Assembly (NCBI GenBank): GCA_018066285.1
Contig: JAGHRS010000016.1
Location: 1 to 57,474, forward strand
Direction: 5' to 3'
DNA length: 57,474 nucleotides
Source: Candidatus Treponema caballi
GTDB lineage: Bacteria > Spirochaetota > Spirochaetia > Treponematales > Treponemataceae
The translations under genes and the position numbers were made by a program. The notes under the pieces were generated by a model, which was not told the origin of the DNA, searched no databases, and was given only the letters and a program-made list of their open reading frames with translations. This document shows, in pieces, positions 13,674 to 34,697 of this stretch. Position 1 is the stretch's first letter, and every line of letters begins with the position of its first letter.

Positions 13674-14612
13674 ATGAGACGTGAAGTTATTCGTGCTTCG
13701 GTGCTGGGGTATTGCATGGGGGTTCGCCGTGCGGTTTCTGTAGCTGAGAAGTGTCTTGAAACATATAAGGATCATCCCGTGTTTTCGTACGGGCCGCTCA
13801 TCCATAACAGGAGCGCGCTTGCTGCCCTGGAAGAGAAAGGGCTGAAACTGCTTGAACACGTGGATGACCTTCCGGATGCTTTAAATGGGGAAATGTCCGT
13901 TTCAGCAGATAAGGCGCCGGTCGTCATTATCAGGGCGCACGGTGTACCGCCTGAAACGCGCGCCGCTCTGGAAAAGCAGGGATGCATCATTGAGGATGCA
14001 ACATGTCCGCGCGTGCTTGCAAACCAGAAGAAAGCCGCTTCGTATGCGGCAAAAGGTTATACCGTCATTATTGCGGGTGACAAGAACCACGGAGAAGTTA
14101 CGGGGCTTTCCGGCTGTGTCCGTGATGCCGCAGATGCTGCTTTATCCGGTGCTCAAAACGCTGACGATGCACGCGCATCATGCCTGCTTGTGGACAGCTC
14201 ATCAGACGCAGCTGCCCTTGATGTGACCGGATGCGGCGGAAACGTCGTTCTTATAAGCCAGACAACCATAAGCCCTGCAGAATATGCTGAAATAGCGGAT
14301 GTGCTTAAGAAGCGCATTCCGCATCTTGAAGTGCTTGATACCGTGTGCCCGGCGACCCAGGAACGGCAGGCGGCTCTTGAAGAACTGTGTGCGCGCGCGG
14401 AAGGCGTGCTCATTATTGGCGGCAGAAACAGCGCGAATACGCAGCGCCTTTTTACAAGCGCAAAGCAGAAGTGCGCGCATGCCGCCCATATAGAAAAAGC
14501 CGATGACATTCCGGCTGAGTTCTTCAGCCTGAACACCATCGGCATTACCGCGGGCGCCTCAACACCCGACTTCGTAATCGACGCCGTAGAAGCGCGCCTT
14601 TCTTCACACTAA
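13674..14612 (+). CDS. ispH: 4-hydroxy-3-methylbut-2-enyl diphosphate reductase
   Basis: A 312-residue IspH (LytB), last enzyme of the MEP isoprenoid pathway, which reduces HMBPP to IPP and DMAPP with an iron-sulfur cluster. The three cluster cysteines are visible in GYCMGVRRAV, EDATCPRV and DTVCPATQERQ; the conserved RAHGVP block is present. The ATG at 13674 is chosen because it begins the conserved MRREVIRASVLG segment and the upstream in-frame codons lie inside the promoter. Compared with the family pattern it carries two alanine/aspartate-rich insertions (about residues 66-80 and 151-166), both matching the dispersed coding repeat described elsewhere. Confidence 0.95.
   Translation: MRREVIRASVLGYCMGVRRAVSVAEKCLETYKDHPVFSYGPLIHNRSALAALEEKGLKLLEHVDDLPDALNGEMSVSADKAPVVIIRAHGVPPETRAALEKQGCIIEDATCPRVLANQKKAASYAAKGYTVIIAGDKNHGEVTGLSGCVRDAADAALSGAQNADDARASCLLVDSSSDAAALDVTGCGGNVVLISQTTISPAEYAEIADVLKKRIPHLEVLDTVCPATQERQAALEELCARAEGVLIIGGRNSANTQRLFTSAKQKCAHAAHIEKADDIPAEFFSLNTIGITAGASTPDFVIDAVEARLSSH
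13873..13919 (-). repeat. In-frame coding repeat, copy E (in ispH)
   Basis: On the minus strand this segment contains GCCTTATCTGC, the core of the dispersed repeat. The gene reads it in reverse as ALNGEMSVSADKAP, placed between the conserved DLPD and VVIIRAHG blocks where other IspH proteins run straight on. Confidence 0.4.
14124..14180 (+). repeat. In-frame coding repeat, copy F (second in ispH)
   Basis: Contains GCAGATGCTGCTTTATCCGG, close to GCAGATGATGCCTTATCTAC of the clpB copy. It reads in the gene direction as DAADAALSGAQNADDARAS and lies just after the conserved GDKNHGEVTGLSG block. Confidence 0.4.
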
Positions 14613-14652
14613 GCAGATTTTTTCTATGAGTGCATAATCTGCTTAGTGTGAA
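14603..14652. terminator. Bidirectional terminator hairpin, ispH / NifX-like
   Basis: Perfect 17-bp inverted repeat (14603-14619 and 14636-14652) with a 16-nt loop, lying between two convergent genes. The ispH stop codon is inside the left arm. A weaker extension of the arms continues outward. Only a short T-run lies in the loop, so termination would rely on the stem or on Rho. Confidence 0.7.
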
Positions 14653-17055: not shown

Positions 17056-18417
17056 TTACGCTTTTATTTCACTTTTTGTGCGGAATATTTTCCTGAGCAT
17101 GAAAGCTGCTGCAACAGTAAGGATGAGTTCAGCAACTGCCTGTGCGTAGCCCATGCCGTAAAGCGGATAGAATCTGTTCAGGATGAGGATTGCAGGTATT
17201 TCAAGAACGATTTTGCGCAGTACCGCAAAAAGCAGCGAGTAAGATCCTTTTCCGATAGCCTGATAGACTGCGACAGCTGAAAAGTCGATTGCCAGAAACG
17301 GAATGCCGAGGCTCATGGCACGAAGAAGAAGTTTTCCGTGGGTAACGATGTCGGGATCTGTCATGAACAGGCGGATGAGCTGTTCTGAGAAGATGAAGAA
17401 TGCTGCTCCAAGTGAAAAAGTAACGATAATGGTCAGGCGCAGGACGAACATTGTGCTGTCTTTCATGCGCTTCCTGTTGCCGCTTGCCCAGTTGTAGCTG
17501 ATGAGCGGCATGACGCCTTGTGTTACACCCATGGAAATGTAGATGGGCATCATGTTTATCTTGTGGGCGATTCCCATTGCTGAAACTGCGGCGGCACCGA
17601 AAACAGCAGTAAGGTTGTTCAGGATGAGCGTACCGGTCACGTTCAGGAGGTTCTGTATTGAGGCTGGAATGCCGACACCGAACACTTCCCGGATGATGTC
17701 ACTGCGAAAGCCGAAGAGACGCGGGCTTAAGGAAATGGTCGTGGTCTTCCGGTGCAGGAAGATGTACATGAGAAGGTAGAGCGTTGCAAAGCAGTTTGAT
17801 ATTAACGTTGCAAGACCTGCGCCGGCAGCTCCCATATTCAGAAACTGCGGCAGGATGAAGAACGGGTCGAGCATCATGTTGAGGATGCAGCCTGACATGA
17901 CGCCGACGCTTGCATGCATGGCTTCACCTTCAGCGCGTACGATGTTTGAAAGCACGACGTTGAGGATTGCCGGAGCGGCGCCACAGGTGACCGTCCAGAA
18001 CAGATAGCGGTGTGTCGCATCCCGCGTGATGTCATCGGCTCCCAGAAGGTTCAGGAACGGCTGCTTGAAAAATGCGTAGGTAATCGATATAAGCACGCCG
18101 CATAAGGTCGCCAGGTAAAAGCAGAAAGCAGATGTTTTCTTGACAGTGTCGTATTCTTTCTTGCCGAGTGAGCGGCTCATCATGCTTGAGCCGCCGACAC
18201 CGAACAGGTTGTTGATCGCGTTAAAGGCAAGCAGCATTGGTGCTGCCAGTGAGACAGCGGCGGTTTCTACAGCATCGTTCAGCATGCCGACAAAGTACGT
18301 GTCGGCCATGTTGTAAAGAACCATGACCAGAGTACCCAGAACAGAGGGAACAGCAAGGGTAGCAACAGCTTTCGGGATGGAGTAGTTTTCAAAGAGGTCA
18401 GTTTTCTTTTCGTCCAT
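17056..18417 (-). CDS. MATE-family efflux transporter
   Basis: A 453-residue, twelve-helix multidrug and toxin extrusion protein, in the inner membrane, exporting cationic compounds or metabolites by Na+ or H+ exchange. Typical N-terminal sequence PKAVATLAVPSVLGTLVMVLYNMADTYFVG (first half of the motif at residues about 15-30). The ATG at 18417 fits the family N-terminus and the promoter. The longer open frame upstream runs through a palindromic repeat. Substrate unknown. It has its own promoter and is not obviously in an operon. Confidence 0.9.
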   Translation of the reverse strand: MDEKKTDLFENYSIPKAVATLAVPSVLGTLVMVLYNMADTYFVGMLNDAVETAAVSLAAPMLLAFNAINNLFGVGGSSMMSRSLGKKEYDTVKKTSAFCFYLATLCGVLISITYAFFKQPFLNLLGADDITRDATHRYLFWTVTCGAAPAILNVVLSNIVRAEGEAMHASVGVMSGCILNMMLDPFFILPQFLNMGAAGAGLATLISNCFATLYLLMYIFLHRKTTTISLSPRLFGFRSDIIREVFGVGIPASIQNLLNVTGTLILNNLTAVFGAAAVSAMGIAHKINMMPIYISMGVTQGVMPLISYNWASGNRKRMKDSTMFVLRLTIIVTFSLGAAFFIFSEQLIRLFMTDPDIVTHGKLLLRAMSLGIPFLAIDFSAVAVYQAIGKGSYSLLFAVLRKIVLEIPAILILNRFYPLYGMGYAQAVAELILTVAAAFMLRKIFRTKSEIKA

Positions 18418-18472: not shown

Positions 18473-18700
18473 ACGTCGTACGCGTGAATGAATACCCAAT
18501 CGGCCTTGTTTAGCGAAAGGGAGAGCGGGACTGCCCGAATGACCGGGACATGCATGTCGCGCCTCGGCCCCGAGCATGCGGAACGCATGCGAGTGAGATA
18601 CCTTAGCGCCGCAGCGCGTTATGCGTGGCACGGGCAGTAGGGCAGTCCCGCTCTCCCGTTTACTAAGGAAAGCCCACCCGCGCATTCATTCACGCGACGT
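18473..18700. repeat. Palindromic element PE1 after superoxide reductase gene
   Basis: A 228-bp GC-rich imperfect palindrome. Outer arms share GCGTGAATGAAT (18482-18493) with its complement at 18684-18695; inner arms share a perfect 18-bp GGGAGAGCGGGACTGCCC (18519-18536 against 18640-18657). The middle contains further hairpins and the motif GTGGCACGGGCAGTAGG (18625-18641), related to one in PE2. The right end encodes the last residues and the stop codon of the superoxide reductase. It fills the whole gap to the MATE promoter. Confidence 0.75.
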
Positions 18701-19076
18701 CCTTCTTCCAGAGCTTGTGCAGGTTGCAGTATTCCATGGCTGCCTGCACATCCTCGTTTTCATTAAGCTGGAAAATGGCGAGCGGTTTCTCTCCCGGCCC
18801 GATGCTTTTGGCGTGAAGCCCCTTGCTTGTAAGAAGCACAATCCATTCAATGAAGTGCTCAACAGTTGAAGGATGTTCCTCACTTCCCACCATGATGGTG
18901 ACTTTTCTCCCATCCTGACGGATAACCGGTACGTGTTTTTCGATGCTTGCATCTACTGTTCCTGGCTCGATTTTCTGCATGGGCATGCCGCAACAGACGG
19001 TCGGCACGTTCGTCTTCTTTACGACTGCGACAATCTTGCCGCAGTAAGGGCAATAGTACAATTCAAGTTCTTTCAT
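18690..19076 (-). CDS. Superoxide reductase, desulfoferrodoxin type
   Basis: A 128-residue two-domain superoxide reductase. Residues 1-36 are a desulforedoxin domain with a four-Cys iron site (CPYCGK and VCCGMP). Residues 37-128 are the catalytic domain with EKHVPVI, HPSTVEHFIEW and CNLHKLW, which supply the four His and one Cys of the active iron. It detoxifies superoxide to peroxide without oxygen release, typical of anaerobes. The ATG at 19076 has a strong AAAGGAG site; an in-frame upstream extension is not family-like. The last codons (DVA and stop) lie inside palindromic element PE1, so the C-terminus may have been rewritten by it. Confidence 0.95.
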   Translation of the reverse strand: MKELELYYCPYCGKIVAVVKKTNVPTVCCGMPMQKIEPGTVDASIEKHVPVIRQDGRKVTIMVGSEEHPSTVEHFIEWIVLLTSKGLHAKSIGPGEKPLAIFQLNENEDVQAAMEYCNLHKLWKKDVA

Positions 19077-19204: not shown

Positions 19205-19250
19205 AATGAATCATCAAATAGTCACCTTGGTGACTATTTGATGATTCATT
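19205..19250. terminator. Long hairpin downstream of CPBP protease gene
   Basis: Perfect 22-bp inverted repeat with a 2-nt loop, starting 14 bp after the stop codon of the minus-strand CPBP gene. It is likely to stop or stabilise that transcript. No strong T-run follows. Confidence 0.6.
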
Positions 19251-19873: not shown

Positions 19874-19944
19874 AAACACCCTCCACGCGCAGTATACACT
19901 CTTTTTGGGAAAGAGAAATCACAAGAAAAGCAAACTTCCCGAAA

Positions 19945-20165
19945 GAAAGCACACATCTGCCTTATTAACGAAAGGGAGAGTGCGGCTGGCGGACCGTGGA
20001 TGTGGCACGGCCGTAGGCGATGCTGGCACGACGCAATATCGGCAGGTATTTGCCTGCCACCCTGCCGCCGATTGTGGCGGGACAGCAGCGCCGGAAGGCC
20101 GGGACGCATACACGGGTAGCCGGACGCACTCTCCCGTTCACTGAGAAAAGCGAATGTGCGCTTTA
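19945..20165. repeat. Palindromic element PE2 after membrane HTH gene
   Basis: About 220 bp, GC-rich imperfect palindrome. The arms share GGGAGAGTGCG (19974-19984, complement at 20125-20135) and outer AAGC.CACAT. The left arm CTTATTAACGAAAGGGAGAG resembles CTTGTTTAGCGAAAGGGAGAG of PE1. The interior has a GGCAGG/CCTGCC hairpin and GTGGCACGGCCGTAGG (20002-20017), like PE1. Its right end touches the stop codon of the membrane HTH gene. Open frames through it are spurious. Confidence 0.75.
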
Positions 20166-20843
20166 TTCCTGCTGTTTGCTTTTTCTGTACATTTCGACGA
20201 GCTGGTCGCGTGTCACGTTTCCGTTGCGTTCCCGCGCCGCCTTGAGCTTTCTGTACACGGTGTTCTCAGAAAATCCCTGTACTTCTTTCTGATATATGGT
20301 GCCATTACACAGCTGGTCAAGAATCATTTTCTCATCATCATAAAGAATGAGCGACTTTCTGTCGTAGTTTCTCTGAAAAATGTAGTTCAGAACACAGACT
20401 AACCAGGCACTTCTGGCAGCATGCAGCAGGAAGTGGATGATTCCTTCATCATTCAGGATGAAGGCTGTGCACGCGGCAATAGCATAGACAATAAGGGCTG
20501 GTATCTTCAGTTTTGGATTCAGCATGTAGACAATACACAGAATGAACAGCGCTGAAAAGTTGTTGTACAGTGCCGTTTTTGTAAATGCAAGGATAAACAC
20601 GACAACAACAGAATAGAAAAGAAAGAAAAACGAAAATGACTCTCTTTTAAAAATCAGGATGAAAGGAATGTAGAGCAGGTTTGCTGCAGAAAGGAAAATG
20701 AATTTCAGGTTTACACCCTCGGTCATGATGCGGGCAAAATAAAGCCCGGCAATCATAAGAGAAAGGAGTGATGTGCAGATAATAAAATAGTCTTTCGACG
20801 CAGTATGCTCTGTGTTTGTTTTTTGAACATCATTTCCTTCCAC
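20163..20843 (-). CDS. Membrane protein with C-terminal HTH-like domain
   Basis: A 226-residue protein I do not recognise. Residues 18-160 hold about five or six hydrophobic segments with short loops. The last 60 residues are hydrophilic and look like a helix-turn-helix of the kind that follows a YDDEKMILDQLCNG helix, then VQGFSENTVYRKLKAARER. A membrane-bound transcription regulator is the simplest reading, but it is inference. The start is GTG, with AAGGAGG six bases upstream. It is the last gene of an operon after the MATE transporter and nucleoside hydrolase, 15 bp from the latter, so it may sense their substrate. Confidence 0.6.
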   Translation of the reverse strand: MEGNDVQKTNTEHTASKDYFIICTSLLSLMIAGLYFARIMTEGVNLKFIFLSAANLLYIPFILIFKRESFSFFFLFYSVVVVFILAFTKTALYNNFSALFILCIVYMLNPKLKIPALIVYAIAACTAFILNDEGIIHFLLHAARSAWLVCVLNYIFQRNYDRKSLILYDDEKMILDQLCNGTIYQKEVQGFSENTVYRKLKAARERNGNVTRDQLVEMYRKSKQQE

Positions 20844-34143: not shown

Positions 34144-34205
34144 TGAAGTTCCCTCGCGTCAACAATACACCAGCACATGCTCCTCCGTAAACCCCGCCCA
34201 CGCGA

Positions 34206-34241
34206 GCGGAGAAAAAGCGCAAAACCGCGCGCTTTCTCCGC
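34206..34241. repeat. Hairpin repeat R1
   Basis: GCGGAGAAAAAGCGC, loop, GCGCGCTTTCTCCGC. First of four similar units; the left arm GAAAAAGCGC and right arm GCGC.CTTTCT recur in all. Confidence 0.7.
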
Positions 34242-34373
34242 ACGCTTTTTAAAAGAGAAAAATGGTATTTCAGCGAAATACAACATAAGGAAGACATTTC
34301 TCCGCAGTCTTCATGGTCGCAAAGAGGTTTTTTTCGAAAAAAAAGAAAATGAGAGGGAAGTATCAGGAAGTTG

Positions 34374-34411
34374 TACGTAGAAAAAGCGCTTAACCGCGCG
34401 TTTTCTACGTA
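34374..34411. repeat. Hairpin repeat R2
   Basis: TACGTAGAAAAAGCGCTTAA then CCGCGCGTTTTCTACGTA. Compared with R1 the outer stem changed from GCGGAG/CTCCGC to TACGTAG/CTACGTA: both arms changed together, a compensatory change. Confidence 0.7.
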
Positions 34412-34439
34412 GCCTTTCAAAAGTGTTAAGAATCCGCAT

Positions 34440-34474
34440 GCAGAGAAAAGCGCAAAAGCACTTGCTTTCTCCGC
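34440..34474. repeat. Hairpin repeat R3
   Basis: GCAGAGAAAAGCGCAAAAGC then ACTTGCTTTCTCCGC. Same unit with a weaker inner stem. Confidence 0.6.
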
Positions 34475-34499
34475 AACCAGTAGTTTTCTTTTTTTCAGT

Positions 34500-34538
34500 G
34501 TACGAAGAAAAAGCGTTTAACCGCGCGCTTTCTCCGCA
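34500..34538. repeat. Hairpin repeat R4
   Basis: GTACGAAGAAAAAGCGTTTA then ACCGCGCGCTTTCTCCGCAC. Same unit as R1, with the inner sequence AACCGCGCG shared with R2. Confidence 0.6.
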
Positions 34539-34562
34539 CGCCACGCGTGCGTCAGAACGCAG

Positions 34563-34697
34563 AAAAAGCATTTATTGTAGATTAGTGTGTGGTGGTGCCG
34601 GACTGGGGCACCTGCCGTACGGGAGCATCAGCGATGACACCGGCAGGCAGGGGACACAGGCAGGTACCACCACACACTGCTCTATGAATGCTTTTTA
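34563..34697. repeat. Palindromic element PE3 after uxaC
   Basis: About 135 bp. Perfect 12-bp arms GTGTGTGGTGGT (34585-34596) and complement (34666-34677), outer arms AAAAAGCATT near both ends, and an internal CCTGCCG/CGGCAGG hairpin. The right end overlaps the uxaC stop codon. The interior GGGGCACCTGCCGTACGG resembles GTGGCACGGCCGTAGG of PE2. Confidence 0.65.

Follow-up and report, generated by a model that had tools for sequence, protein, structure and literature searches.

A palindrome at a superoxide reductase gene end of Candidatus Treponema caballi belongs to an undescribed family of small, strongly folded, probably mobile elements

Introduction

Small palindromic repeats are common in bacteria, and most are read as transposon remnants. 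Prokaryotic MITEs, for example QMITE of Coxiella and BOX, RUP and SPRITE of pneumococcus, usually come with target duplications and with a parent transposon. Terminator hairpins serve as insertion targets of group IIC introns, whose orientation there is fixed. Integron attC sites, at gene 3' ends, are imperfect and strand-specific hairpins whose structure is what is recognised. REPs measure 20 to 40 bp, carry GTAG/CGTC tags, lie mostly downstream of coding regions and often form inverted pairs, and Y1 transposases can have long flanking TIRs (PMC3733652). In yeast mitochondria, GC clusters form mobile palindromes that lack genes and that merge and reshuffle (PMC4478555).

The window analysed here is a stretch of 57,474 nucleotides of the Candidatus Treponema caballi genome, in which a first-pass annotation had described a 228-bp palindrome, PE1, and suggested that it is a small mobile or RNA-forming element. 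The family to which PE1 belongs resembles MITEs in being short, multicopy, foldable and without open reading frames, with many intergenic copies, and in the terminal inverted repeats and empty sites of its homologues in Treponema sp. UBA1233. Unlike MITEs, it shows no target-site duplication and no parent transposon was found, its stem sequences vary between copies while pairing is kept, its strand-polarised core is common to several species, and the element appears to sit inside another inverted repeat. The proposed insertion at terminator-type hairpins in a fixed orientation recalls group IIC introns, whereas the elements have no Rfam match and are far too short for intron domains. As with attC sites, they are strand-specific imperfect hairpins at gene 3' ends, but the conserved part is at the tip rather than the base, the outer arms vary and the copies are dispersed. 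In behaviour, the yeast GC clusters are the closest system: together with double-hairpin elements of fungal mitochondria (PMC4478555) they are ultra-short, gene-less mobile hairpins that exchange parts and turn over quickly between relatives. In contrast to GC clusters, which have short target duplications, the PE1 family occupies a bacterial chromosome and carries a conserved RNA-like apical motif.

Results

Extent and fold of the palindrome

PE1 spans positions 18473 to 18700, as delimited by its inverted repeat and fold, and is not assigned to a strand. Its nested hairpins are present as first described, as is the inner arm, which is perfect over 18 bp (GGGAGAGCGGGACTGCCC, 18519 to 18536, against 18640 to 18657). 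The outermost perfect arm is of 13 bp and pairs CGCGTGAATGAAT (18481 to 18493) with ATTCATTCACGCG (18684 to 18696). With its flanks, the + strand folds at -145 kcal/mol (z = -5.5), and none of 100 shuffled sequences folds equally well; the palindrome is confirmed and greatly exceeds what chance would give.

Within the palindrome, the element proper covers 18509 to 18671 on the + strand, with approximate ends TTTAGCGAAAGG and CCGTTTACTAAGGAAA, and is strand-polarised and rich in G.A on that strand. Its boundaries are approximate and the exact insertion limits in this genome are those that we infer from two features, namely G.A mismatches found only in about 50 nt on each side of the core and an outer motif common to other copies. 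The apical core A, which is the conserved part of the family, lies at 18552 to 18631 (+ strand) and scores 79 bits with the covariance model R1 (see below). It contains an apical hairpin, GCATGCG-GAA-CGCATGC (18574 to 18590, + strand), set between a conserved GA on either side, and, 3' of this hairpin, a conserved single-stranded stretch, GAGTGAGATACCTTAGC (18591 to 18607, + strand), in which most positions are invariant or nearly so and of which the ATACCNTA portion is also found in other Treponema species. Two GNA/GNA internal loops are present on the + strand, the first formed by GAA (18537 to 18539) and GTA (18637 to 18639) and the second by GGA (18546 to 18548) and GCA (18628 to 18630). 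A terminator listing limited to loops of 3 to 8 nt and in the number of pairs, which places long hairpins outside its range, has no entry at 18473 to 18700, and the minus strand just past the PE1 stem is without a long U-run.

The reductase stop codon lies in the outer arm

PE1 is located between the stop codon of its upstream neighbour, a superoxide reductase (desulfoferrodoxin) gene (18690 to 19076; Pfam PF01880 and PF06397), and the start of its downstream neighbour, a MATE transporter gene (17056 to 18417; Pfam PF01554, MatE). Both genes are on the minus strand, and the far end of PE1 stops 55 bp short of the start codon of the MATE gene (18417). The right outer arm is a terminator-type stem that holds the last codon of the reductase, an alanine, and its stop codon TGA (minus strand, 18690 to 18692), and the left outer arm is a perfect inverted copy of this gene end; neither arm is assigned a strand.

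The earlier proposal that the palindrome supplies this stop codon is not supported. Sequence comparison of the reductase C terminus (..LWKKDVA) with those of congeners (..LWKGEV, ..LWKSES or ..LWRTNP), whose reductases are about 50% identical to it, indicates a protein of native length, so PE1 overlaps the stop codon rather than adding a new one. A plain hairpin follows soon after the reductase gene in four of six congeners, and this, together with the native end, makes a stop codon within the arm an ordinary feature rather than one added by the element. Such arms occur at many gene ends of the focal genome: of 582 such ends, 52 have an inverted repeat of at least 11 bp, which in 15 cases overlaps the stop codon, compared with 0 of 582 interior controls. 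One example in the window, at 14603 to 14652, follows an IspH-like gene. On the other side of the reductase gene, between its start and a CAAX-protease-like ORF, there is a 22-bp perfect hairpin (AATGAATCATCAAATAGTCACC / GGTGACTATTTGATGATTCATT) at 19205 to 19250.

A conserved apical core defines the family

A DNA search of the focal genome (2.91 Mb in 75 contigs) retrieved 14 places besides PE1, nearly all of which align over a single central stretch of 57 nt composed of CGCMTCGGCCCCGAG, a hairpin and CGAGTGAGATACCWTAGCGCCGCAGCG. A gapped pattern search gave 17 copies, with none for the reversed control pattern, and 26 columns of the 57-nt core are invariant across these copies. The covariance model R1, built from the 17 copies, finds 22 core copies in the genome, including PE1, with E values from 6e-21 to 8e-4, and counts among them a diverged core variant, A' (GAGTCGGATACC). 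The conserved apical motif consists of TCGGCCCCGA, a variable hairpin and GAGTGAGATACC. Further genomic copies, the test set beforehand for a mobile or RNA-forming element, are therefore present.

The copies also show the compensatory changes predicted by the first-pass annotation. The sequence of the core hairpin differs widely among them, while 98% of cells are paired and double changes occur in all six pairs. Over 17 pairs, 58 cells are doubly changed, versus 17.3 +/- 3.2 after shuffling, and core pairing reaches 92.7% of cells, versus 19 to 49% in slid controls.

The R1 core was absent from the six congeners searched, from 244 other genomes sampled in the family, and from 293 other genomes of the order, a sample that overlaps that of the family. 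Rfam gave no match in the window at the gathering threshold, no family for 15 loci searched with permissive settings and none for 7 further loci; plasmids and viral contigs searched for the family gave no match. A literature search, which is weak evidence of absence as subscription journals were outside its reach, found no paper describing the family. We regard the PE1 copies as members of an undescribed family in gut Treponema, made up of small non-coding elements that are strongly folded and probably mobile. A kink-turn was considered as the identity of the core and discarded on inspection, because a 3-nt bulge together with a suitable C helix could not be fitted. A second, unrelated palindromic repeat family, with TACTAGAAT / ATTCTAGTA arms, occurs at L067:4902-5016 (C48:13401-13515) and L112:7380-7580 (C61:46980-47180), and it is on this family that the best sub-threshold Rfam match falls, a spurious one to a eukaryotic microRNA model.

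Mismatches reveal two layers, and stems carry different tips

The arms of 18 core-A elements were aligned outward from the core with scoring blind to the type of mismatch. Up to 50 columns from the core, the mismatches comprise 102 G.A, 8 C.T, 32 G.U and 14 A.C, versus 36 G.A, 24 C.T, 34 G.U and 27 A.C beyond 50 columns. The difference between layers in G.A versus C.T (p = 5e-7) and the inner excess of G.U over A.C (p = 0.011) carry p values that are indicative only, because mismatches of related copies are treated as independent. This bias near the core shows that the inner ~165 nt is polarised, as a structure of the + strand. No strand preference is seen in the outer arms, which are nonetheless complementary to their own partners (31.3, versus 18.6 after shuffling and at most 22.5 in 300 shuffles), as are ordinary strand-symmetric inverted repeats such as the terminator hairpins over stop codons in this genome. 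The base and outer arms are unlike between copies, and no TIR shared among the copies of the focal genome was seen. The simplest reading of the two layers would be a folded element within the loop of another inverted repeat.

A survey of long hairpins covering 822 kb (28%) of the focal genome, in MAG assemblies, revealed further long gene-end hairpins that have the same kind of stem and other tips, with core variants A' or B or no core. These have in common 3x3 internal loops of the form GNA/GNA, the polarity of which equals that of the core in core-bearing copies. Two relatives lie in the window, bearing out the kinship with a second palindrome that had been noted at first. The relative at 19941 to 20168 (+ strand) has GNA/GNA loops and polarity as in PE1 and carries core B (ATCGGCAGG..CACCCTGCCGCCGA), which is also found at three other loci. 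The relative at 34563 to 34696 (+ strand) has no apical core and presents two GNA/GNA loops on a long stem, the outer part of which resembles a bidirectional terminator (AAAAAGCATTTAT / ATGAATGCTTTTT). Adjoining it, a region without a convincing gene (34190 to 34545) holds a run of three or more AGAAAAAGCGC..GCGCGCTTTCTCC hairpins, of which two are identical in their arms.

Most copies keep one orientation at gene ends, and one double unit is duplicated

When all tip types are taken together, an oppositely oriented gene has its 3' end no more than about 145 bp rightward of the core in 21 of 28 copies, 2 of 28 have a gene end at a similar distance on the left, and 7 of 28 violate the rule; the genes in this count are open reading frames, mostly unchecked against families. 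This fixed orientation agrees with the earlier suggestion that the element targets gene ends. Two double units, on C17 and C35, each join a minus copy to a plus copy, back to back, and are 91% identical over 374 bp. The genes bordering them are unrelated, and the similarity ends a few bases past the stop codons. Fold-back copying of the gene end, considered as an origin of the gene-end palindromes, might account for the C58 copy and for the 13-bp arm; pre-existing terminator stems are the simpler explanation.

Homologues in rumen Treponema have exchangeable tips and empty sites

A relaxed core pattern matched 14 stretches in 84,980 genomes, 11 of which are in six rumen Treponema/Treponemataceae MAGs. 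The carriers of the family besides the focal genome are RUI404, UBA1233, RUG13083, RGIG2619, Tb.RUG.153 and RGIG4455. These homologues fold to a similar rod with the core GCGAGTCARATACC(W)TATA, and R1 places eight homologous loci at the right position, with weak scores. The stretches from other phyla (L133, L136 and L138) have no rod fold and were taken as chance matches.

In Treponema sp. UBA1233 the query element matches about 20 loci, and many of these match both arms and not the core, in whose place at least two other tips occur. The elements end in TGTGGAAGGCAAGTGC in inverted repeat, and nearly all such pairs are 217 to 315 bp apart, some ends being unpaired in this draft assembly, in which the search of the same repeats for an autonomous partner gave no gene-sized pair. 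The gene between two element copies in L188 was considered as a transposase and set aside, as it resembles, by eye, a flavodoxin/reductase-type ORF. A third apical module (GGTGCGGAATCGGAGGCTGACACGCAACAACATCTGCAC...) occurs on the terminal-repeat stem at L192, L197, L194 and L201, as an imperfect long hairpin with GA-rich loops. At L190 (GTGGAAGGG) and L199 (GTGGAAGAC) the terminal repeats depart from the family consensus by an identical change at both ends, so that the two ends of these elements seem to change together.

For two of the UBA1233 elements, Tb.RUG.153, a close relative, has an empty site, which is clean in one case. Among 18 copies from UBA1233 and Tb.RUG.153, no offset or length tried gave a target-site duplication above shuffled pairs. 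The UBA1233 flanks just outside the element ends are mutually complementary beyond chance (p = 0.001), as if the target were a hairpin. The orientation rule at gene ends is not kept in UBA1233.

Discussion

PE1 is rather probably a copy of a non-autonomous, structure-guided mobile element of rumen/gut Treponema that inserted into a gene-end hairpin. Such an element would move as a strand-specific folded molecule. Within the focal genome it would enter, in a single orientation, the loops of terminator-type hairpins, which are inverted repeats at the 3' ends of genes. In PE1 the inserted element would be the inner stretch of ~165 nt (18509 to 18671), and the outer arms, including the one over the reductase stop codon, would belong to the pre-existing gene-end hairpin. 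A trans-acting enzyme would recognise the GNA/GNA loops and the core on one strand. If insertions land at hairpin tips, elements would nest, giving the same stem with different tips. This reading builds on the observed copy number and conserved core, on compensatory change and strand polarity, on the fixed orientation of copies and the exchange of tips, on duplication at unrelated gene ends, and on empty sites that exist for homologues in another species (UBA1233 versus Tb.RUG.153). PE1 itself now probably acts mainly as an insulating hairpin between the reductase and MATE transcripts.

The proposal of a small mobile or RNA-forming element that targets gene ends and is kin to a second palindrome is upheld by the 22 copies, the compensatory change, the fixed orientation at gene ends, the two relatives in the window, the duplication and the empty sites of homologues. 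An RNA-level function is left unproven, because single-stranded DNA would give the same strand bias. The wobble excess likewise fits RNA and also single-stranded DNA. A structured non-coding RNA or 3'-UTR family, acting in cis or free, in which selection on RNA structure serves a terminator, stabiliser or riboregulator role at gene ends and mobility is incidental, is unlikely. It would account for the conserved single-stranded motif, for tandem G.A beside a variable hairpin, for G.U exceeding A.C in the inner arms and for a core motif kept between Treponema species that otherwise share little sequence; however, one species of the genus carries it while 244 other sampled genomes of the family do not, copies adjoin unrelated genes, the strand that folds lies antisense to the neighbouring gene, and presence varies between close species.

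Mobilisation as single-stranded DNA by the Y1 (HUH) transposase of the genome, with PE1 as a REP-like or IS200/IS605-derived DNA element, is quite improbable. The family shares with REP/BIME and RAYT/TIRYT systems a strand-specific, mismatched single-strand hairpin, intergenic positions 3' of genes and inverted pairs, target-site duplications are lacking, and the focal genome does encode one Y1_Tnp gene. This sole gene (C26:13850), however, has the unrelated repeat GGGACGGTTCTC on its flanks and no PE1-family element there, so it is not an obvious mobiliser and was rejected as such; the region L071:5630-7355 (C26:13630-15355) has the Y1 (IS200-like) gene among several GGGACGGTTCTC copies in both orientations. 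The PE1 element of ~165 nt also lies outside the REP range of 20 to 40 nt, its units being about four to eight times REP length. Ordinary long terminators or intergenic palindromes made similar by convergent requirements are very improbable, since gene-end hairpins, although common in this genome and overlapping stop codons in 15 of 52 cases, would hardly yield 26 invariant columns over 57 nt in 17 copies with no match to the reversed pattern, mismatch strand polarity and homologues in other species.

A wider proposal, tentative and somewhat doubtful, is that the family represents a new spirochaete class of mobile non-coding RNA (or single-stranded DNA) that inserts into hairpin tips, in which the core would drive recognition or insertion and successive insertions would give composite hairpins with interchangeable tips. 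The PE1 family joins a strand-specific structure under compensatory change with an undescribed conserved motif, an RNA-like one carried at the tip of PE1, with tip swapping and with an apparent targeting of gene-end hairpins. Two questions become directly testable with it: which enzyme reads structure over sequence, and whether RNA or DNA forms the folded strand. Its stem variants also make up a natural collection for studies of how gene ends are insulated and how structure guides insertion in gut Treponema.
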